From Methylibium sp. (GTDB taxonomy: Bacteria > Pseudomonadota > Gammaproteobacteria > Burkholderiales > Burkholderiaceae_C), in the NCBI GenBank assembly GCA_013824165.1, contig PNNH01000048.1:52732-116731 (forward strand): a stretch of DNA of 64,000 nucleotides, written 5' to 3'. The notes beneath the pieces were generated by a model that was given only the letters and a program-made list of their open reading frames with translations, had not been told where the DNA came from and did not search any database. Positions 13,540 to 64,000 of this stretch are shown here, one piece after another (within the stretch, counting starts at the first letter, position 1; the number at the start of each line of letters is the position of its first letter). A program made the position numbers and the translations under genes.

Positions 13540-13962
13540 TCACTTCAGGTGGCTGTTGATCAGCTTGGTCATCTCGAACATATCGGCCTTGGCCTTGCCG
13601 AAGATTTCCTTCAGCTTGGCATCGGCAACGATGATGCGCTTCTGCACTTCGTCCTGCAGCTTGTGCTTCTTGATGTACTCCCACACCTTCTTGGTCACAT
13701 CGGTGCGCGGCAGCGGTGCCGAGCCGACGATGGCGGCCAGTGCGGCACTGGGGGTCAGCGCCTTCATGAAGGCCGCGTTGGGAGTGCGCTTCTTTGCAGG
13801 AGCCGCAGCCTTCTTGGCGGGGGCAGCCTTCTTGGCCGGTGCAGCGGCCTTCTTTGCCGGAGCTGCCTTCTTGGCCGCAGGAGCTGCCGCCTTCTTGGCC
13901 GGAGCGGCCTTCTTGGCCGGAGCCGCCTTCTTGGCGGGTGCAGCCTTCTTCGCAGTTGCCAT
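13540..13962 (-). CDS. SWIB/MDM2-domain protein with lysine/alanine-rich histone H1-like tail
   Basis: The 140-residue protein has two parts. Residues 1-62 are a low-complexity basic tail built from KKAAPA/KKAAAPA units, as in H1-like DNA-binding proteins. Residues about 65-140 form a SWIB (BAF60b) domain: MKALTPSAALAAIVGSAPLPRTDVT and then VWEYIKKHKLQD. SWIB domains are chiefly eukaryotic chromatin-remodelling modules but are known in Chlamydia and several proteobacteria. The likely role is nucleoid binding or condensation (inference). ATG 13962 is supported by a GGAGA ribosome site eight bases upstream. The gene stands alone with its own terminator. The repeat tail may vary in copy number between strains. 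Confidence 0.92.
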   Translation of the reverse strand: MATAKKAAPAKKAAPAKKAAPAKKAAAPAAKKAAPAKKAAAPAKKAAPAKKAAAPAKKRTPNAAFMKALTPSAALAAIVGSAPLPRTDVTKKVWEYIKKHKLQDEVQKRIIVADAKLKEIFGKAKADMFEMTKLINSHLK

Positions 13963-53948: not shown

Positions 53949-54022
53949 GGCCCGCATTGTCGACCATGCCCCGGCCGCGCTGCGGCAGCAAGGAATTGCG
54001 CGCTTGCCCCAAAATGCAGGCC

Positions 54023-54994
54023 ATGGTCGATACCGCTCACTTCGAAGTCCACGCCGATCCCCACCTGCCCAGCGCGCCGAGCTATGGCTTCGGCCGTTGC
54101 GACTGCGCACGCTGCGGCCCGCCTGCCCAGCCGCAGCGGCGCCTGTTCACCGGCTTGCTGGCGGGCAGTGCGGTGCTGTCCAGCGTGCCGGCGTGGGCGC
54201 AACAGCAGCGCGAAGGGGTTGATGTCGGCGAACGCAGCAAGCTGGCCGGCCTGGTGCCGGCCGAGCAGATGGAGTCCGCGGGCGCGCAGCAATACCAGCA
54301 GATGATGCGCGAGGCGCAGGATCAGCGCGCGCTGGCGCCGGCCGACCATCCGCAGGTCAAGCGCCTGCGCGCGATCGCCAACCGCATCATTCCGCAGTCC
54401 TACGGCTGGAACCCGCGGTCGCGCCAGTGGAAATGGGAGGTCAACCTGATCGGCAGTAGCCAGCTCAATGCCTTCTGCATGCCGGGAGGCAAGATCGCCT
54501 TCTATTACGGCATCCTCGAAAAGCTCAAGCTCGACGACGAGGAAGTGGCCTTCATCATGGGCCACGAGGTGGCCCACGCGCTGCGCGAGCATGCGCGCGC
54601 GCGCATGGCCAAGACCACCGCGACGCGCATCGGCGCCAACCTGCTGTCCAGCGTGCTGGGGCTGGGCAATCTGGGCGACGCGGCGCTGAGCATGGGCGCG
54701 CAGCTGCTGACGCTGAAATTCAGCCGCGAGGACGAGACCGAAGCCGATCTGGTGGGGCTGGAGCTGTCGGCCCGCTCGGGCTACCGGCCCGAAGCCGGTG
54801 TCAGCCTGTGGCAGAAGATGGCCGAAGCCTCCAAGGGCGCGCCGCCGCAGTGGGCTTCCACCCACCCGACCGGCCCGACCCGCATCCGAGACATCGAGAG
54901 CAACATTCCGAAGGTCGAGGCGCTGTATGCGCGCGCCGAGAAGCCGCAACAGCGCTTCGAGGTGGCGCAGCCGCTGCGCCGCCGCGACAGCTGA
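54023..54994 (+). CDS. M48 family metalloprotease (Oma1/LoiP-like)
   Basis: A 323-residue zinc protease with the HExxH motif in IMGHEVAHALREHARARM and the third ligand in EDETEADLVGLEL. An export signal (PQRRLFTGLLAGSAVLSSVPAWAQ) is preceded by an unusual 35-residue N-terminal extension containing RCDCARCG, so the protein either starts further downstream or carries a Cys-rich cytosolic leader. ATG 54023 or 54014 are the possible starts. Typical relatives are periplasmic membrane-associated quality-control proteases. There is no TPR region, in contrast with the BepA-like protein at 22259-23896. It is divergent from the flavin reductase. Confidence 0.9.
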   Translation: MVDTAHFEVHADPHLPSAPSYGFGRCDCARCGPPAQPQRRLFTGLLAGSAVLSSVPAWAQQQREGVDVGERSKLAGLVPAEQMESAGAQQYQQMMREAQDQRALAPADHPQVKRLRAIANRIIPQSYGWNPRSRQWKWEVNLIGSSQLNAFCMPGGKIAFYYGILEKLKLDDEEVAFIMGHEVAHALREHARARMAKTTATRIGANLLSSVLGLGNLGDAALSMGAQLLTLKFSREDETEADLVGLELSARSGYRPEAGVSLWQKMAEASKGAPPQWASTHPTGPTRIRDIESNIPKVEALYARAEKPQQRFEVAQPLRRRDS

Positions 54995-55002
54995 AGCGTC
55001 CG

Positions 55003-55638
55003 CTACCAGCGCGCCGGCAGCGCCTTGAGCAGAACAAAACGCCCGCCCGCCTCGCGCTCGACATAGCCGCCCAGCTCCAGGTCCTTCATCAGCTTGGACA
55101 CCATCTCGCGCGAGCAGCCCAGCTGCCGGGCCATCGACTGGTGCGTCAGGCGGCCGTCCGGCGGGCTCTCCAGCAAGGCCTTGAGGCGGCCGTAGACGTC
55201 GTTGAGCGCCAGCTGCTTGGTCGACAGCGTGGCGGCGCGCGCCCGGCGTATCACCTTGGTCAGCAACTCCAGCGCGAACTCGGGATGCGCGGCGATATGC
55301 GCCAGCAGGCTCTGGCGCGTCAGCAGCACGCAGCGGCTGGCCTCCTCGGTGATGACGCTGGCCGCGCGCGGGCCACCGTCCAGGCTCATTTCACCGACAT
55401 ACTCGCCGGCGCCATAGCTGCCGTAGGTGACTTCGCGGCCCCGGCTGTCGCAGCCGAACACACGCAAGCGCCCAGAAACCACCAGATACAGGCTGTCGCC
55501 TTGCGAGCCTTCCTCGATCAGCAGCGTGCCTTTGCGATAGCTGCGCAGCACGCCGCGCTCGGCCAGCAAGGCGAGTTGCGGCGGCAAGGCGCTGAGTGCG
55601 GCGTCGGTGGCTGGAGCAGCGGGTAGGTTCTTGGGCAT
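55003..55638 (-). CDS. Crp/Fnr family transcriptional regulator
   Basis: A 211-residue regulator. The cyclic-nucleotide-binding domain (about 20-140) contains GTLLIEEGSQGDSLYLVVSGRLRVF and, at the phosphate-binding cassette, GAGEYVGEMSLDGGPRAASV, close to the Crp pattern GELALIDGGPRSAT. The helix-turn-helix (about 160-205) reads LTHQSMARQLGCSREMVSKLMKDLELGGYV. No Fnr-type cysteine cluster is present, so cAMP or another small molecule is the likely effector. The window also encodes a class III cyclase at 57291-59117, but a link is only a guess. It is convergent with the M48 gene. Confidence 0.94.
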   Translation of the reverse strand: MPKNLPAAPATDAALSALPPQLALLAERGVLRSYRKGTLLIEEGSQGDSLYLVVSGRLRVFGCDSRGREVTYGSYGAGEYVGEMSLDGGPRAASVITEEASRCVLLTRQSLLAHIAAHPEFALELLTKVIRRARAATLSTKQLALNDVYGRLKALLESPPDGRLTHQSMARQLGCSREMVSKLMKDLELGGYVEREAGGRFVLLKALPARW

Positions 55639-55748: not shown

Positions 55749-56405
55749 TCAATTGCGCAGCGCCGACACCAGCGGCGGCAACACCGCCAGCTGACGCAGC
55801 AATTCGCGGATGCTGCGCGCGCCGGACTTGGCGCGGATGCTCTGGATCTGGGTGCGCACGGTGGAGATGGCCACGCCCTGGCTCTCGGCAATGCTGGTGG
55901 GCCGGGCACCGCTGCTCAGGCCCTTGAGAACTTCCGACTCAGCCGGCGTCAGGCCATAGCGCAGCGCAAACCACTGCGCGGCCAGTGCGCCGCACAGCTC
56001 CTGGCGCTCCAGCACCAGCAGCACTGCCGCCTGTTCGACATCGCGGTTCAGCGGCACGACCACCAAATTGGCGCGATCCTGCCCTTCGCCCAGGCGCAGC
56101 AGGCAGCGGCGATCGTCGCGCTCGGCTTGCAGCAGGGCATCGAACAGCGGCTTGATGTCCTGGCTGAAGCGGGCCCGCAGCTGGCCGCCCAACAGCTGCA
56201 GCGGATGGTGTTCGTTGAGCACCTGCCGGGCCGCGCGGTTGCTGTGCAGCAGCCCGCCGCTGGCATCCACCAGCAAGAGCCCGTAGTCGAGCTCGTCCAG
56301 GACCAGCGCCAGCCAGTGACTGCTCAGAGACGCCGCACGCCGGCGTTCAGCCAGCGGCGGCGCAGAGCTGAACCGGCGCCCCACTGTGGTTTCGTTGACC
56401 AACAT
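55749..56405 (-). CDS. LuxR-type helix-turn-helix transcriptional regulator
   Basis: A 218-residue regulator with a PAS-like sensor part (about 30-125: LALVLDELDYGLLLVDASGGLLHSNRAARQVL) and a C-terminal LuxR/GerE domain: YGLTPAESEVLKGLSSGARPTSIAESQGVAISTVRTQIQSIRAKSGARS. There is no receiver domain and no autoinducer-binding domain that I recognise, so it is probably a one-component regulator with an internal ligand. It has its own upstream region of about 147 bp. Its targets are unknown. Confidence 0.9.
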   Translation of the reverse strand: MLVNETTVGRRFSSAPPLAERRRAASLSSHWLALVLDELDYGLLLVDASGGLLHSNRAARQVLNEHHPLQLLGGQLRARFSQDIKPLFDALLQAERDDRRCLLRLGEGQDRANLVVVPLNRDVEQAAVLLVLERQELCGALAAQWFALRYGLTPAESEVLKGLSSGARPTSIAESQGVAISTVRTQIQSIRAKSGARSIRELLRQLAVLPPLVSALRN

Positions 56406-56552
56406 GTTTTGACTCCCTCGGAACGCTCGGATCGAGCAACAACAGCGCGATGACAGCGTGTTGCCCTGAAGCTTAGAGGGAGGGTCACGGCAGGCTGCGT
56501 GAATCCTGAGACCCGGTTTTGTGAAAAATTCACCTCGGCATGCCGCCGGCGC

Positions 56553-57194
56553 TCAAGTGCCCAGCACGTGGGGGTTGCTGCGGCGCTCACGGCCGAAGCT
56601 GCTTTCCGGGCCGTGGCCGGGGATGAACACCGTCTCGTCGCCCATCGGCCACAGGCGCTGCGTGATGGAGGCAATCAGCGTGGCGTGATCGCCACCCGGG
56701 AAATCCGTGCGGCCGATGCTGCCAGCGAACAGCACATCGCCGACGAAGCAGCGCTGGATCTGCGGCGCATGGAACACCACATGGCCGGGCGTGTGGCCCG
56801 GGCAGTGGCGCACCTGCAGGGTCTCGCGGCCCAGCGTCACCGTATCGCCATCGGCGAGCCAGCGCGTCGGCTTGAAGCCCTCGGCAGCCGGGAAGCCGAA
56901 CATCGCGCTCTGCTGCGGCAGGCCGTCGATCCAGAACTGGTCGCCCGGGTGCGGCCCGACGATGGGCAGGCTGTGCTCGCGCGCCAGCTGGCCGGCGCCG
57001 CCGGCATGGTCGATATGGGCGTGCGTCAGCCAGATCGCCTTCAGCGTCAGGCCGCGCTCGGCCACCGCCGCCAGCAGTCGCGGCAGTTCACCGCCCGGGT
57101 CGATCAGGGCGGCTTCGTTCGTCTCGTCGCACCACAGCAGCGAGCAGTTCTGCTGAAAAGGTGTCACGGGCAGGGTCTGGTAGCGCAGCGTCAT
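56553..57194 (-). CDS. MBL-fold metallo-hydrolase (glyoxalase II-like, YcbL type)
   Basis: A 213-residue metallo-beta-lactamase-fold hydrolase with the metal motif THAHIDHAGG, the later His in CPGHTPGH, the bridging Asp in FVGDVLFAGSIGRTDFPGG and the C-terminal FIPGHGPESSFG(R)ERRSNP. This last motif is the YcbL/glyoxalase II-like type. It probably hydrolyses a thioester such as S-lactoylglutathione; the substrate is not proven. It is shorter than GloB (about 250) because it lacks the C-terminal helical domain. ATG 57194 is used. The frame upstream overlaps the divergent cyclase gene and is not used. Confidence 0.93.
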   Translation of the reverse strand: MTLRYQTLPVTPFQQNCSLLWCDETNEAALIDPGGELPRLLAAVAERGLTLKAIWLTHAHIDHAGGAGQLAREHSLPIVGPHPGDQFWIDGLPQQSAMFGFPAAEGFKPTRWLADGDTVTLGRETLQVRHCPGHTPGHVVFHAPQIQRCFVGDVLFAGSIGRTDFPGGDHATLIASITQRLWPMGDETVFIPGHGPESSFGRERRSNPHVLGT

Positions 57195-57290
57195 GTGCGG
57201 ATTATCCCGGTCGGCCCGAAGCGCTGACGGTGGCGCTTCAGTGAGCCACCGCACAAACCCGCTGCAATGCGGCCGGGTGCTTCCGCAACA

Positions 57291-59117
57291 ATGACGATGT
57301 CCACCACCAAGAACACAACGAGCATGCGCGGGCAAGACACGCCGGGGGAGGCCTGGCCGGAACTGACGAGAAGCACCAAGACCATTGTCGTGGTCGATCT
57401 GGTCGAGTCCGTGCGCCTGATGCAGCTCGACGAGGCCGGCGTGATCGATCGCTGGCGGCGCTTCGTCCACGAGGTGCGCAGCCAGGTGCTGCCCTCCCTC
57501 GACGGGCGCATGGTGAAGAGCTTGGGGGATGGGATGTTGCTGGAGTTCGACTCGGTGCCCGGTGGCACCGCGGCAGCGCTGGAGATCCAGCGCCGCCTGC
57601 TGGCCGGCCAGCCACGCGGGCCGCGCGACGTGCCGCTGCAGCTGCGCATCGGCATGCACCACTGCGAGGTGGTGCACGACGAGCTTGATGTCTACGGCAG
57701 CGGCGTCAATCTGGCCGCGCGCCTGACGACGCTGGCGCTGCCCGGCGATATCGTGGTGTCGTCCGAAGTGCGGGAACAGCTGCTCGACGGCATCGACGCC
57801 GGCATCGAGGATCTGGGCGAGTGCTGGCTCAAGAGCCTGAGTGAACCCATCCGCGCCTGGCGGCTGCGGCCGGCAGCCCAGCCGGCGGGTCAGGGCAGCA
57901 GCTTGTCGCTGGACCGCACCGAGCTGCGTGCCAGCGTGGCCGTGCTGCCGCTGCGCACCCTCGCGGGCGAGCAGCCACAGCTGATGCTGGGCGAATTCGT
58001 CGCCGAAGAGCTGACCACCTGCCTGAGCCGCGTGCCCTATCTGGCGGTGATCTCCAGCCTGTCGACCGCCACGCTGCGCCAGCGCGTGATGCCGGTGGCC
58101 GACATCGCCCGCAGCCTGGGCACGCGCTATCTGGTGCAGGGCAGCTGCGCGCTACTGGACGCGCAGTTGCGCATCCATGTGCAACTGGTCGATGGCCACA
58201 GCCAGGCCATCGTCTGGGCCGGCAGTGCCAACGGCAGCATGGCCGAGCTGCTGCAAGGCCAGAGCGCCGCCATCGCCGAGCTGTCCAGCCAGCTGGCGCA
58301 GGCCCTGGTCGGCGCCGAAGCCGTGCTGGCCGATACCCGGCCGCTGCCTGCGCTGGAGAGCTACACGCTGCTGTTCGGCGCGATCGCCAAACTGCACCGG
58401 CTCTCGCCCGACGCCTTTGCCGACGCGCGCCGCATGCTGGAACACCTGGCCGAGCGGCATCCGCGCTCGCCCATCCCCAAGGCCTGGCTGGGCAAGTGGC
58501 ATGTGATGCGCATCGGCCAGGGCTGGTCGCCCGACCCGGCCGACGACGGCCGCCAAGCCGCCTGGCAGACCGGCAATGCCCTGGACCTGCATCCCGAGCA
58601 TCCGCTGAGCCTGACGCTGGACGGCTTTGTGGCCGGCTATGTGCGCAAGGATTTCGCCACCGCCGAACAGCGCTACGACATGGCGCTGCAGGCCAATCCG
58701 AACGAGAGCCTGGCCTGGCTGTTCAAGTCGGCGATGCTGGGCTACCGCGAAAGCACGGCTGAAGCCATCAGCTGCGCCGACAAGGCGATGAGCCTGTCGC
58801 CCCTGGACCCGATGCGTTACTACTACGAGCACTTCGCGGCGCTGGCGCGGCTGCTGGCCGGCGACTACGCCGAGGCCATCCGGCTGGGCCAGAAGTCCCT
58901 GCAAGGCAACCGCACGCACGCTTCGACGCTGCGCGTGCTGGTAATGGCGCAGGCGCTGGACGGCCAGATCGACGCCGCGCGCGCTTGCGCGGCCCAGCTG
59001 CGTGCCATCGAGCCGCAGCTGACGGTCAGCAGCTTCCGGGCGCGCTATCCCGGCCAGCAGCAAGGCCAGGTCGACAAGCTCACCTACGCGCTGGCCCTGG
59101 CCGGCATCCCCCCCTGA
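57291..59117 (+). CDS. Class III adenylate/guanylate cyclase domain protein with TPR region
   Basis: A 608-residue soluble protein. Residues about 25-190 form a class III cyclase domain: the metal Asp in [24 protein letters not shown], the second metal-binding region near [16 protein letters not shown]. Then follows a CadC/TolB-like alpha-beta domain (about 215-340: [53 protein letters not shown]) and TPR-like helices to the end. This domain order is common in rhizobial and betaproteobacterial cyclases. The substrate base, ATP or GTP, is not certain. ATG 57291 and 57297 are alternatives. It is 50 bp upstream of the haloperoxidase-like gene and may share its transcript. Confidence 0.9.
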
Positions 59118-59167
59118 GAGCTGCCGCGGCAGCGGTTCGACAACAGCAGACGCAACAAGGAGGAAAA

Positions 59168-60382
59168 ATGAGCGGACAGACTGGAACCACGGGCACGACC
59201 GGCACCACAGGAACGACAGGCACCACCGGTACAACTGGGACGACTGGGACCACAGGGACTACAGGCACGACCGGAACAACCGGCACGACTGGAACGACTG
59301 GGACCACCGGCACGACAGGGACGACGGGCACCGTCGCCGGGCCGGCACATTTCAACGGCATCTCGGGCTACGCGGGCACCGTGATGAACCCGACGCTGGC
59401 GCTGGCCGTGGAGGCCATGCGCAAGGAGCTGATCCACGCCATCAAGCCGCAGCAGATCGGGCCCTACAGTCCAGGCCGGCGCCGCCTGTCCGAGCTCGAT
59501 GACCCGGACAATCTGGCGCGCTGGCAGCCGGCGGTGCGCCTTTCGACGCTGGGCTGGGAACTGGGCTCGGGCCTGAGCGTGCACACCACGCCGGCCAGCT
59601 CGGTGGAGCTGCATGCCGGCGGGCAGCTGATGGTCAGCCTCGTGAGACCCACGTTGGACGAGCTGCGCAAGCAGGCGCTGCGCACGTTGGACTTTCGCGA
59701 GAAGGCGGTCGGCTCCGAGGTGCTGACGTCCGGCCTCAACGAAGGCCTGACCCAGCTCACGCCGGCCATCGCGTTCTGGAGCGCGCTGCTGCCGCTGCAT
59801 CCCGACCGCACCGGCCGCACGTTGGAGCTGATCGAGCTGACGCTGCAGCTGGCCTCGGCCGCCGTGCTGCGTATCAAGCATGCGCTGGCGGTGCCGCGCC
59901 CATATGAGGTGAACATGGCGATCCAGCCGCTGATACTGACGCCGGCCCATGGCGCCTTCCCCAGCGGCCATGCGACCGAATCCTCGGCAGTGTCGACCAT
60001 GCTTGCCTATCTGGTCTCGGACAGCGGCCACGCGCCCTCGCCCGACTATGCCGACGCGCTGCGCGTGCTGGCCCAGCGCATCGCCCGCAACCGCGTCGTG
60101 CTGGGCGTGCACTACGAGATCGACAGCATCGTCGGCCAGCTGCTGGGCGAGACGCTGGGCGTCTATGTGGCTGGCGTCTGCACCGGCGCGGTCGAGACGC
60201 CGGCCGGTGCCTTCAACGGCCAGGGCGAGATCGACGAGCTGTGGATGGTGCGCACCGGCGCACCCGCCTTGCAGCAGATGGGTTGCCGCGCGCTGGGCGG
60301 GCCGATTCGGCCGGCGCTGAATCGCCAACTGGCCTGGCTGTGGCAACGCGCCAGGGCCGAATGGGGCTACACAGGCGCCTGA
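59168..60382 (+). CDS. PAP2/vanadium-haloperoxidase-fold protein with an N-terminal Gly-Thr-Thr repeat
   Basis: A 404-residue protein. Residues 6-53 are sixteen Gly-Thr-Thr triplets, and residues about 60-400 form an enzyme domain. The acid-phosphatase/vanadium-haloperoxidase residues are all present: K237-x6-R244-P245, P265-SG-H268 and R309-x5-H315-xxx-D319. It resembles bacterial vanadium-dependent haloperoxidase-like proteins more than lipid phosphatases, because no transmembrane helices are present. No signal peptide is visible. An ideal AGGAGG ribosome site precedes ATG 59168. Haloperoxidase or phosphatase activity cannot be decided by reading. It is followed after 12 bp by a subtilisin gene on the same strand. 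Confidence 0.88.
59183..59326 (+). repeat. Sixteen tandem 9-bp units encoding Gly-Thr-Thr
   Basis: Sixteen consecutive GGN-ACN-ACN units encode an uninterrupted Gly-Thr-Thr array. Fifteen of the sixteen nucleotide units differ from each other (only units 2 and 10 match), so the array is a protein-level repeat with scrambled synonymous codons, not a recent slippage array. The Gly-X-Y periodicity is collagen-like. Confidence 0.95.
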
Positions 60383-60394
60383 GCGGGGGCACGC

Positions 60395-62380
60395 ATGACA
60401 ACAACAGCACCCCAAAGACCGCAGTGGCGGGACGTGCCCAGCGCTGAGCTCGACGCCGCGCCCGACCCCTGGCTGCAATGGGCCAGCCGCCGCCGTGGCG
60501 ACGAGCCACTGCAGCACCGCCTGTGCGAAGGCGAGCGCCCCGCGGCGGCAGGCCCGCAGGCGGGCTGGCAGATTCCGTCCGTCTACCCGGCCGGCTGCGC
60601 CTTCTTCACCGCACATCGCGCCAACCGCCAGGCCTTGCCGCCGCCTGTGCCGGGCGCGCGCCACAGCGTGCTGAGCTCCGGCACGCTGGCGCTGGCCGGC
60701 GCTGCGCAGCCACCCCGCCAGACGCGTCATGCCGACGGCCCGCCAGCCAGGCGTGCAGCGCTGGCCTCGGGCACCCCAGTGCTGGGCATCATCGACGCCG
60801 ATATCGCCCTGCTGCACCCGATGTTCCGCGCGGCGGACGGCCGCGCCCGCATCCGGCACTTCTGGGACCAGGGCCATGGCCCGCTGCGCGCACCCTGGCG
60901 CACCCCACCCGAGCTGGGCTATGGACGCGAACACGACGGTGCCGCGATCGAGGCCTTCGGTCCGCTGCCCGATGCGAGGGCGCAAGCGCGCGCCTACCGC
61001 AGCCTGGGCCTGCCGATCCCGCGCTGGGGCCATGGCACCCAGGTGCTGGCCCTGGCCGGTGCCAGCGCTGATCCGCTGACCGGCCAGGCCGACGCCGCCA
61101 GCACGCTGGAGATCGTGGCCGTTCAGGTGCCCGGCCCGGCGTTTGCGCAGACGCATGGCAACTGGCTCAACAGCTGCGTGCTGGACGGACTGCGCTACCT
61201 GCTGGCGCGCACCGCGCCTGAATCCCCGCTGATCGTCACCCTGAGCCTGGGCGCCCACAGCGGCTCGCACGACGGCCAGGGGCTGCTGGAACGCGCAATC
61301 GATGCGCTGATCGACGAACAGCAGGGTCGGCTGACCGTCGTCATCGCCGCCGGCAACAGCCAGCTGGCGCGCGCCCACGCCGAATTCGTGCTGCCGCCGG
61401 CCCAAGACGGTGCGGCGAGCGAGCAATCACTGTGGATCAGCATGCCCTACGACGATCCGAGCCCGAACTTTGCCGAGTTCTGGATCGAGGGTCTTGCCGC
61501 TACGGGCGATGACGCGCTGGAAATCGAGTTCGGTCCCGAGGGCGGGCCGACGACCCGACTGCGATCGGCAGACGCTCCTGCTGCGCGTCTGCTGCAAACT
61601 CAGGCGGGCGCCACGCCGCAGGCCCAGCTGCAGCTTGGCGCGGCCGACAGGCCCGCGGGTGCCAGCCCGCGCCTGCACGCCTGGCTGGGCATCGGCGCGC
61701 GCAAGGCGACCCGGCCGGGCGAAGACGGCGGCTGCCTGTGGGGGCGCTGGCGCATCAGGCTGCGCAATCACGGCCAGCAGCCGCTGCAGATCGGCGCCTG
61801 GGTGGCGCGCGACGATCTGCCCGACCTGGGCCGCCAGCCGGCGCGCCTGGCAAAGAGCTTTGCCGAGCCAACGCCGGCCGCTCTGATCGCCGAGACCGGC
61901 ACGCAGTCGACGCTGGCCAGCTGCAGCCAGGCCATCGTCGTCGGCGCCTATCAATATGAACCGGAGCCGCAGCGCTACACGCTGTGGCCGCACAGCGCCG
62001 GTGGCGGTGCCGATGGCCGCGGACCCGATGTCTGCGGCCCCGGTGCCTTGCGCCGCGGCACGCTGCAGGACTGGCTGGGGCCGGTGAGCTTTCTGTCGAC
62101 CGAGGCGCTGGCGCCCGCCGTGGACCCCTGTGAGCCTGCGCGCGCCGGCACCTCGCTGGCCGCACCGGTGCTGAGCCGCCGGCTGGCGCTCCTGCTGCAG
62201 GAGCACGGCGCAGCCATGCCCCGGACGGATTTGCTGGCCGCCCTGGCGCAACGCTGGCCCGGCGCACCCATCCCCGACGCGCTAACGCCCAACCGGACTG
62301 GGCGATACTGGCTGCCGATGCCACAGCCCGCGCACACCCGCCCCGCTCTTCAAGCGGGCCTCAGGAGCACTCCATGTTGA
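60395..62380 (+). CDS. S8 family serine peptidase (subtilisin-like), leaderless
   Basis: A 661-residue peptidase with the subtilase triad: D134 (LGIIDADIALLHP), H213 (WGHGTQV) and S587 (AGTSLAAPVLS), plus the oxyanion Asn in VIAAGNSQ. The His-to-Ser distance is long because of an inserted beta-rich domain (about 350-500). No signal peptide or propeptide is visible; the first 120 residues are Pro/Ala/Arg-rich. It starts 12 bp after the haloperoxidase-like gene and overlaps the small exported-protein gene by 7 bp, so the three form a tight operon. A role in cleaving one of its operon partners is possible (inference). Confidence 0.9.
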   Translation: MTTTAPQRPQWRDVPSAELDAAPDPWLQWASRRRGDEPLQHRLCEGERPAAAGPQAGWQIPSVYPAGCAFFTAHRANRQALPPPVPGARHSVLSSGTLALAGAAQPPRQTRHADGPPARRAALASGTPVLGIIDADIALLHPMFRAADGRARIRHFWDQGHGPLRAPWRTPPELGYGREHDGAAIEAFGPLPDARAQARAYRSLGLPIPRWGHGTQVLALAGASADPLTGQADAASTLEIVAVQVPGPAFAQTHGNWLNSCVLDGLRYLLARTAPESPLIVTLSLGAHSGSHDGQGLLERAIDALIDEQQGRLTVVIAAGNSQLARAHAEFVLPPAQDGAASEQSLWISMPYDDPSPNFAEFWIEGLAATGDDALEIEFGPEGGPTTRLRSADAPAARLLQTQAGATPQAQLQLGAADRPAGASPRLHAWLGIGARKATRPGEDGGCLWGRWRIRLRNHGQQPLQIGAWVARDDLPDLGRQPARLAKSFAEPTPAALIAETGTQSTLASCSQAIVVGAYQYEPEPQRYTLWPHSAGGGADGRGPDVCGPGALRRGTLQDWLGPVSFLSTEALAPAVDPCEPARAGTSLAAPVLSRRLALLLQEHGAAMPRTDLLAALAQRWPGAPIPDALTPNRTGRYWLPMPQPAHTRPALQAGLRSTPC

Positions 62381-62790
62381 AGACATCAAGCCACCAGCGC
62401 CGAGCGCAGTTGCTGCAATTGCTGCTGGGCGCTGCCGCATTGGCCGCGCTACCCGCGCACAGCACACCTGGACAGACTGCCGAGCCGATGCAGGACAGGA
62501 TCTGCAGCAACTTCCTGCCTGGCGGCGATGGCTGCCTGGGACCGGGTTTCAACACGCCAGGTGTCATGGCTGAAGCCAGGCCCTTGAGCTGGCTCGTGAT
62601 GGCGCCCCGCGAGGCGCGCAAGCGGCTTCAGGCCCTGCTGGACATGGCGCCGTCGGCCTGCCTGCTCAACGAAACCGCGCTGCGTGAGGCACTGGCAGAC
62701 CCCGAAAACACACGCCTGCCGGTGCCGCAGATTGCGGCTGCACCGGCCTGCGCCGCGGCACGCCAGAGCTTGTCCAGCCCGGCGCGCTGA
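62374..62790 (+). CDS. Small exported four-cysteine protein, function unknown
   Basis: A 138-residue protein with a signal peptide (basic start, then LLQLLLGAAALAALPAHS). The mature part contains four cysteines (RICSNF, GDGCLGPGFN, SACLLN, APACAAA), which could form two disulfides. AGGAG lies seven bases before ATG 62374, which overlaps the end of the subtilisin gene by 7 bp. I do not recognise a family. Its tight coupling to the peptidase and haloperoxidase-like genes suggests a substrate, inhibitor or accessory role. Confidence 0.8.
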   Translation: MLKTSSHQRRAQLLQLLLGAAALAALPAHSTPGQTAEPMQDRICSNFLPGGDGCLGPGFNTPGVMAEARPLSWLVMAPREARKRLQALLDMAPSACLLNETALREALADPENTRLPVPQIAAAPACAAARQSLSSPAR

Positions 62791-62821
62791 AGCAACCCAG
62801 CGTCGGCGGCCGGGCTGACGC

Positions 62822-64000
62822 TCAGTCTTCCAGCTGCGACAGGTCGCGCACCGCACCCTTGTCGGCCGACATCACCAGCTTGGCATAGGCCTTGAGCGCG
62901 GCCGAGACCTTGCGCGGGCGCGGCAGCGCCGGCTTCCAGCCCTTGGCATCCTGCTCGGCGCGGCGACGCGCCAACTCTTCGTCGGACACCAGCACGTCGA
63001 TGCTGCGGTTCGGGATGTCGATGCGGACGCGGTCGCCGTTCTTCACCAGGCCGATCGCGCCGCCGGCTGCCGCCTCGGGCGAGCAGTGGCCGATCGACAG
63101 GCCCGAGGTGCCGCCCGAGAAGCGGCCGTCGGTCAGCAGCGCGCAGGCCTTGCCCAGGCCCTTGCTCTTGATGTAGCTGGTCGGGTAGAGCATCTCCTGC
63201 ATGCCAGGGCCGCCCTTGGGGCCTTCGTAGCGCACAACCACCACATCGCCGGCCTTGACCTTGTCGTCCAGGATGTTGGCCACCGCCTCGTCCTGGCTCT
63301 CGACCACATGGGCCGGGCCTTCGAACACCAGCAGCGCATCATCCACGCCGGCGGTCTTCACCACGCAGCCGTCCAGGGCGATATTGCCGTACAGCACGGC
63401 CAGACCGCCCTCCTGCGAAAACGCGTGCTCGCTTGAACGGATGCAACCTTCGGCGCGATCGGTGTCCAGGCTGGGCCAGCGGCTGTTCTGGCTGAAGGCT
63501 ACCTGGGTCGGAATGCCGCCCGGGCCGGCCATGTAGAAGGTCTTGACCGCTTCGCTGGGCGCGCGGGCGATATCCCACTGGTCCAGCGCATCCTTCATGG
63601 TCTTGCTGTGCACGGTGGGCACATCGGTGTGCAGCTTGCCGGCGCGGTCCAGCTCACCCAGGATGGCCATGATGCCACCGGCACGGTGCACGTCCTCGAT
63701 GTGGTACTTGTCGGTATTGGGCGCAACCTTGCACAGCTGCGGCACCACGCGCGAGACGCGGTCGATGTCCTTCATCGTGAAGTCGATCTCGGCCTCCTGC
63801 GCGATGGCCAGCAGGTGCAAGATGGTGTTGGTGGAGCCGCCCATCGCGATGTCCAGCGCGATCGCGTTTTCGAAGGCCTTCAGTCCCATCGAGCGCGGCA
63901 GCACGGTCTCGTCGTCCTGCTCGTAATAGCGCTTGCACAGCTCGACAGCCAGGCGGCCGGCGCGCTTGAAGAGCTGCTCGCGGTCGCCATGGGTGGCCAG
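62822..64000 (-). CDS. ilvD: Dihydroxy-acid dehydratase IlvD, N-terminus beyond right edge
   Basis: The C-terminal 392 residues of dihydroxy-acid dehydratase, which makes the 2-oxo acid precursors of valine, leucine and isoleucine. Recognisable blocks are [97 protein letters not shown] and [27 protein letters not shown]. The frame is open to position 64000. The part with the first iron-sulfur cysteines is outside the window. The [11 protein letters not shown] insertion matches the long E. coli-type subgroup. It is convergent with the small four-cysteine gene (31-bp gap). Confidence 0.98.

Follow-up and report, generated by a model that had tools for sequence, protein, structure and literature searches.

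What is a perfect peptide repeat doing at the front of a soluble enzyme, in a tight run of genes that also encodes a nucleotide cyclase and a subtilisin? The question is raised by a 64,000-nucleotide stretch of DNA from Methylibium sp. (GenBank assembly GCA_013824165.1, contig PNNH01000048.1, positions 52,732 to 116,731 of the forward strand), which was analyzed as a whole and is called the window here; positions below are counted within it. Genes 1 to 3 of this run form a conserved cluster, kept in order and direction, which is found in many Proteobacteria. The PAP2-superfamily enzyme encoded by gene 2 carries in most of these loci a tandem peptide array, whose amino acids are held constant within a genome while its codons are scrambled, and whose unit is replaced between species.

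A conserved three-gene cluster

The run comprises the following features.

57291..59117, + strand: gene 1, class III cyclase with a middle domain and C-terminal TPRs (open reading frame list, Pfam)
59157..59164, + strand: Shine-Dalgarno-like AAGGAGGA, upstream of the ATG that precedes the array (read from the sequence)
59168..60382, + strand: gene 2, soluble PAP2-superfamily enzyme with the acid phosphatase/vanadium haloperoxidase fold (Pfam, residues, fold)
59180..59332, + strand: Thr-Gly-Thr (GTT) array of 17 perfect copies inside gene 2 (repeat and codon comparison)
60395..62380, + strand: gene 3, S8 subtilase with a CspB-like fold (Pfam, residues, fold)
62374..62790, + strand: gene 4, small four-Cys protein with a signal-peptide-like start, judged by eye (lineage-specific addition)

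The four open reading frames share the + strand with gaps of 50 and 12 bp and an overlap of 7 bp, just as the initial annotation of this DNA had described them; gene 1 has an alternative start at 57267. Pfam recognizes Guanylate_cyc and TPR in gene 1, PAP2 and Collagen (the latter on the GTT repeat) in gene 2, and Peptidase_S8 in gene 3, with no family match for gene 4.

The initial annotation had proposed conservation of the gene set in distant genera as its own test, and the triplet of genes 1 to 3 passes it. A PAP2 profile search of 399 family genomes, with the five best first-look candidates scored per genome, reported 62 places at E ≤ 3.1e-20, all of which were used. Gene 1, the PAP2 gene and the S8 gene stand on one strand in fixed order in 54 of these 62 family loci (34 genus labels), and gene 1 adjoins the PAP2 gene in 61; three of the exceptions to the order (L068, L069 and L077) are truncated by a contig end. 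Broader samples, which include the window's own family, gave matches to the same profile at 1e-20 in 4 of 369 class genomes and 21 of 398 phylum genomes. We examined 20 of the 22 places outside the family at E ≤ 1e-20, leaving out the two weakest-scoring (G1122, G482). Eleven of the 20 keep the triplet order; L127, L131 and L132 have the three genes close together on differing strands, and six loci are without gene 1, a CspB-like S8, or both. PAP2 relatives occur in 35 plasmid records as well, including 21 from Phaeobacter, three from Rhizobium and three from Paracoccus; the assignment of Alphaproteobacteria as hosts comes from these named plasmid records. Sixteen of the 35 were used: six with wide flanks, picked for variety, were checked for gene order and all hold the triplet, while ten (six short-flank Phaeobacter and four others) served for arrays only and stand outside the main set. 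That set has 88 loci, 62 from the family, 20 from the class or phylum and 6 from plasmids. Genes in the flanks were called by a simple GC3 rule, and L061 was dropped as a duplicate of L006.

Protein searches listed 8 relatives for gene 2, 11 for gene 3 and 6 for gene 4; those with genes 2 and 3 scored the 7995 candidates with most shared words, and the profile searches found many more relatives. Gene 3 is present in 4 of 60 related genomes, the PAP2 gene adjoining it each time, and the nearest named relative, a Roseateles metagenome-assembled genome, has all four genes. The three-gene cluster is likely an operon. A promoter scan of 56000-63500 returned no sigma-70-type site (0.3 expected by chance) and is therefore uninformative on co-transcription; a terminator scan likewise gave no information.

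The catalytic, TPR and winged helix-turn-helix (HTH) domains of the cluster belong to known families. The initial annotation knew of no described pathway with this combination of genes, and a full-text literature search, with most subscription journals outside its coverage, found neither such a pathway nor a description of the cluster. To our knowledge no described system has this cluster or such arrays, and we know of no bacterial system where dozens of distinct, near-perfect repeats occupy the N-terminal region of a single enzyme family, each strictly selected for sameness within its genome. The arrays thus offer a natural experiment on the birth, fixation and replacement of repeat arrays, and the cluster points to an undescribed regulated-proteolysis or peptide-signaling circuit. 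It occurs in named, cultured bacteria (Phaeobacter, Roseibium, Bosea, Paraburkholderia), where direct testing is possible.

Five genomes hold two copies of the cluster: L112 and L114 (G090), L090 and L061 (G120), L100 and L105 (G322), L123 and L127 (G872), and L129 and L131 (G1098). The L114 copy in G090 has neither S8 gene nor array, yet keeps its CRP and LuxR neighbors.

Identical peptides, scrambled codons

A near-perfect N-terminal tandem peptide array is present in 77 of the 88 PAP2 enzymes. These arrays are built from 55 distinct units (54 if the AGGAGG of L121 is read as AGG), for example GTT, SAT, GGF, QGD, ESW and SGGY, with periods of 3 (52 arrays), 4 (15), 6 (6), 2 (2), 7 (1) and 10 (1). 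Copy number runs from 3 to 18, with a median of 8. The "GTT-repeat" named in the initial annotation is real in the window; what that annotation missed is that the repeat is a variable and strongly selected element.

Comparison of codons between neighboring copies in the 77 arrays gives 1313 silent differences, 14 amino-acid changes and 627 identities, counts to be read with a tract-finding score that favors matches. In the GTT array of the window, 38 of 48 comparisons are silent and none changes the amino acid. For the 50 best arrays of the 62-locus set, 408 neighboring codons are identical, against 581 expected from the genes' own codon usage (1000 simulations, range 522-634). Thus, DNA identity lies below chance despite near-perfect peptide identity. 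Five arrays (L072, L074, L075, L080 and L107) behave in the opposite way, with more identical neighboring codons than chance; they look young and resemble recent re-expansion.

As a control, such a tract lies in the first 75 residues of 7 of 566 flanking genes, six of them Lys/Ala-rich, and anywhere in 10 of the 566. Lys/Ala/Pro-rich repeat genes adjoin the cluster in L073, L076, L078, L081 and L088. The word ESW, sought elsewhere in the genome, gave four overlapping matches in G379, all within the PAP2 gene, and none in four other genomes.

In most copies the array comes shortly after a start codon and in frame with it. A start codon lies at most 12 codons before it in 67 of 77 cases, and a Shine-Dalgarno-like motif precedes the nearest start in 64 of 77, compared with 18% of random 20-mers. 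The unit is in phase with residue 2 in 37 of 46 period-3 arrays (p 7e-11) and 11 of 14 period-4 arrays (p 4e-5), a phase that a duplication beginning at codon 2 would predict equally.

Enzymes at least 91% identical share their unit in 4 of 4 pairs; of 25 pairs with 60-82% identity, 22 have different units, frequently with a single residue altered in all copies. Five species under one genus label carry SGGV, SGGI, SGGA, SAGV and SAGV, and seven Phaeobacter records always carry NSF, in 5 to 7 copies with silent differences. In Parasedimentitalea marina (L158 4791-5949) an NSF-array enzyme appears split into pieces.

The PAP2 enzyme and the neighboring peptidase

Known PAP2 superfamily motifs are K-x6-RP, PSGH and R-x5-H-x3-D. 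In the family alignment their Lys, Arg, Pro, Pro, Gly, His, Arg, Gly, His and Asp are each kept in 62 of 62 loci (among them Lys237, Arg244, Gly267, His268, Arg309 and His315), and the Ser of PSGH (Ser266) in 50 of 62. The Pfam PAP2 family matches 26 of 26 sequences scanned, and by these residues and matches the gene 2 product is a PAP2 superfamily member. The closest solved folds are the class A acid phosphatases, which makes the earlier label of "haloperoxidase" doubtful; the reaction may be hydrolysis of phosphate esters or oxidation of halides. Gene 2 shares fold and catalytic residues with PhoN, PhoC and the vanadium haloperoxidases. Unlike these, it has no export signal (by eye), it has an additional N-terminal region that holds the peptide array, and it lies beside gene 1 with a peptidase gene usually next.

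The gene 3 product is an S8 subtilase of the Csp-like kind. Its catalytic triad is kept as Asp134 in 52 of 55 sequences (two Glu, one gap), His213 in 54 and Ser587 in 54, and its oxyanion Asn321 in 53. The catalytic residues that the initial annotation read as intact in the PAP2 and S8 products are confirmed, and they are conserved across the aligned family loci. Its calls on export (no signal in these two proteins, a clear signal peptide in gene 4) are judgments by eye. The Csp germination subtilisins of Clostridia (CspA, CspB, CspC) are the best sequence matches of gene 3, and by Foldseek its model (mean predicted local distance difference test score, pLDDT, of 68) lies nearest to Clostridium perfringens CspB (E 8e-21, TM 0.73 over the target). 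The Csp germination proteases act on a spore cortex lytic enzyme in spore formers. Gene 3 differs from them in that its hosts are Proteobacteria and its neighbors encode a cyclase-TPR protein and a PAP2 enzyme; its triad is intact, unlike that of CspC (a pseudoprotease by PDB title). Subtilases weakly related to gene 3 occur in Bipolaricaulota and other phyla (L007-L027), with no PAP2 relative within the stretches examined.

Array and peptidase are associated. A peptidase gene, whether CspB-like S8, other S8 or G1/A4, accompanies 75 of the 77 arrays. Contig-end cases apart, ten loci are without the CspB-like S8, and in four of them the next gene encodes another peptidase: a Peptidase_A4/G1 protein after gene 2 in L134, L135 and L115, and an unlike S8 in L137. 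An array is present in 75 of 80 loci with a peptidase and in 2 of 6 without (Fisher p = 0.0008, kinship ignored). That table leaves out L069 and L097, where the enzyme start is cut off or the contig is short, and credits L068 and L077 with a peptidase because of weak S8 matches where their contigs end. The four loci with neither array nor peptidase keep gene 1 beside gene 2, in the usual order in three and reversed in L118. Trimming by a tripeptidyl-peptidase as the sole mechanism was rejected, as array periods of 2, 4, 6, 7 and 10 do not fit it.

Gene 1 and the neighboring regulators

A class III cyclase carries two metal-binding Asp, a base-selecting Lys and Asp, an Asn and an Arg. The cyclase domain of gene 1 (about residues 30-195) has all of these as Asp36, Asp80, Lys76, Asp133, Asn140 and Arg144, conserved in 45 to 57 of 61 sequences (Asp36 and Asp80 in 54), and by these residues gene 1 is a class III cyclase. 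The middle domain is TolB-like by eye and has no Pfam match. The domain order is that of bacterial class III cyclase-TPR signaling proteins. Gene 1 departs from the usual proteins of this kind in that some family members have a winged HTH in place of the cyclase front end, with the cluster unchanged. Of 85 loci, 69 have a cyclase-like front end. A Trans_reg_C winged HTH is recognized by Pfam in L125 and L143, the latter counted among the 69 because of a weak cyclase-like stretch. Most of the remaining front ends look by eye like a SARP-type winged HTH, but a Pfam scan of L130, the only member of this group to be scanned, returned no winged-HTH match; those of L108 and L113 fit neither type.

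Two regulator genes are associated with the cluster in the window.

55003..55638, - strand: CRP/FNR-type regulator, cNMP_binding and Crp HTH (Pfam PF00027, PF00325)
55749..56405, - strand: LuxR-type HTH regulator (Pfam PF00196, 23.6 bits, cut-off 23.5)

Both lie upstream of gene 1 on the opposite strand; in many other loci such genes come after gene 3, again on the opposite strand. In 31 of the 69 cyclase-type loci a CRP-type gene is found no more than 3 kb away, compared with 1 of the 19 other loci (p 0.001, kinship uncorrected; 32 of 88 in total); for a LuxR-type gene the figures are 25 of 69 and 3 of 19 (28 of 88 in total). In three of those 19 loci the stretch does not include gene 1. The control by cyclic nucleotide that the initial annotation had suggested gains support from the CRP comparison. 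Unit composition does not covary significantly with the parts of gene 1 in 68 loci (cyclase end p 0.24, middle domain p 0.07, TPR p 0.28).

Known cyclase-based systems were compared with the cluster. CBASS, Pycsar and other catalogued defense systems, for which cyclase and effector should both match defense models, were set aside: at E ≤ 0.1, genes 1, 2 and 4 have no PADLOC family and gene 3 has one subtilase model (E 1.7e-7). The TIGR04510 peptide-modification cyclase system was set aside at 26.9 bits against a curated cut-off of 400.

How the array may be used

We tentatively favor a reading in which the array is recognized and cleaved by the peptidase, which would thereby control the PAP2 enzyme. 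It draws on the link between array and peptidase, on the replacement of one peptidase family by another and on the phase in which the units lie, and on these grounds we regard it as plausible, if short of probable. Gene 1 would be a cytosolic sensor, whose front end may report by a cyclic nucleotide read by the nearby CRP-type regulator; its output might alternatively be its own DNA binding through the winged-HTH domain. While uncut, the array would hold the enzyme in an assembled or inactive state; unit-by-unit trimming by the cognate peptidase would then yield many identical short peptides and free enzyme. When the unit changes, the array would re-expand from one copy, with all copies changing together and still suiting the peptidase. 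A further reading, possible but on the unlikely side, takes the array as a species-specific peptide word read by its cognate peptidase alone. The many identical tri- or tetrapeptides on the enzyme front would be a lock-and-key code, with all copies rewritten at divergence and fixed in between, codons scrambled against collapse of the DNA, and readout through cyclic nucleotide or the DNA-binding domain.

Several observations weigh against cutting of the array by the peptidase. An S8 gene occurs without an above-threshold tract (imperfect or no array) in L093, L094, L099, L112 and L113, and an array without a recognized peptidase in L136 and L138. On the tree, the four loci with neither amount to no more than three or four independent events. 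With kinship in the PAP2 domain allowed for, unit composition does not follow S8 sequence (partial Mantel r 0.08, p 0.10, 68 loci). The units are diverse, from acidic QGD through neutral GGA to basic RAG; with no obvious common chemistry, one peptidase family would have to accommodate all of them. None of the six period-6 arrays is in phase with residue 2, five being off by three residues, and in L137 and L138 the tract sits well within the protein. Uniformity of the word in a genome and its difference between species would suit a released peptide signal or self-assembly just as well.

If self-assembly is the purpose, the array would be a tag that associates the enzyme in a collagen-like, polyglycine or silk-like manner, with uniformity serving the lattice and the target of the peptidase lying elsewhere. 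The Pfam Collagen match on the GTT array, the Gly content of 43% over all array residues and the low confidence of the monomer model of gene 2 in this region (residues 1-111, array included, below pLDDT 50) are in keeping with such a tag. In its match to collagen, the window array resembles the Gly-X-Y proteins of bacteria (Scl, Lcl), whereas many relatives carry non-collagen words in the same region. The window array has the Gly at every third residue that collagen requires, but only 41 of 77 arrays in the family have a Gly-containing unit of period 3, the others having units such as SAT, ESW, QQT and DAR or periods of 2, 4, 6, 7 and 10. A collagen stalk as a general explanation is weakened accordingly, and the four array-less loci with genes 1 and 2 adjacent lack the peptidase too. 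We consider an assembly tag unlikely. The array might instead be a multi-copy peptide precursor, with the released peptides rather than the enzyme as the signal, sensed by the TPRs of gene 1 and passed on by its cyclase or winged-HTH end. Precedents are alpha-factor with Kex2 and the Gram-positive TPR peptide receptors. Alpha-factor shares with the cluster exact peptide copies with divergent codons and a subtilisin-type peptidase; the array here differs in being fused to an enzyme and in having no secretion signal by eye. A released peptide would fit the exact copies, scrambled codons and species-specific word, the residue-2 phase of most units, and the TPRs and alternative front ends of gene 1, as well as a unit that stays NSF in the seven Phaeobacter records yet differs in most pairs of more distant enzymes. 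But once kinship is allowed for, unit composition shows no significant link to the TPR region of gene 1 (r 0.04, p 0.28), an indirect test of quorum sensing of the RRNPP type, in which a TPR protein binds a processed peptide. Little information would be carried by a tripeptide like GGA, and the transporter genes that recur in the vicinity (MFS in 14 loci, another membrane protein in 5) follow other syntenic genes rather than the cluster in general. We judge the proposal improbable.

The initial annotation had offered an oxidative or phosphatase module; in the oxidative form, a vanadium haloperoxidase would make reactive halogen species under regulation by subtilisin and cyclase. The enzyme keeps the residues common to haloperoxidases and acid phosphatases, and its sequence matches bromoperoxidase 1qi9 (E 7e-10). 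Precomputed PF22778, presumably a haloperoxidase helical-bundle domain, is present in 5 of 8 homologues, though the window protein has no match to it. Sequence and fold of gene 2 suit acid phosphatases as well, and suit them better; we rate the oxidative module as unlikely. Least probable by far is a functionless array produced by replication slippage. The five young-looking arrays and the variation of copy number among Phaeobacter records would agree with slippage, but the array sits in the N-terminal region in 77 of 88 loci, and we reject the artefact on the excess of silent changes (38 against 0 in the window alone, and far outnumbering amino-acid changes overall even though tract finding favors matches) and on codons that are, overall, more diverse than chance.

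Gene 4 and other features of the window

Gene 4 encodes Cys at positions 44, 54, 96 and 126. The initial annotation had grouped this protein with the other three. Of the 88 loci, just two hold it, the window and its congener, so it was rejected as a general member and is a local, lineage-specific addition.

A metallo-beta-lactamase-fold hydrolase (56553-57182, - strand) and an M48 peptidase (53957-54994, + strand) recur beside the cluster in 10 and 13 loci. Together with the MFS gene, which we take to be AmpG-like, they look like shared chromosomal synteny and not part of the system. The Paracoccus zhejiangensis plasmid (L157 1-8450) has an S8 gene convergent to an enzyme gene whose SGH array is imperfect, both near a gene for a type VI secretion ATPase. 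A search of the window for RNA families and tRNAs found none, and a tandem repeat of about 18/39 bp lies at 13789-13950. In five loci a large protein (about 1040 to 1400 amino acids) with a class III cyclase-like part lies near the cluster, at the following positions.

L065, 864-3995
L071, 12390-15518 (oriented)
L072, 12164-15355 (oriented)
L099, 1911-5306 (oriented)
L082, 1669-5880

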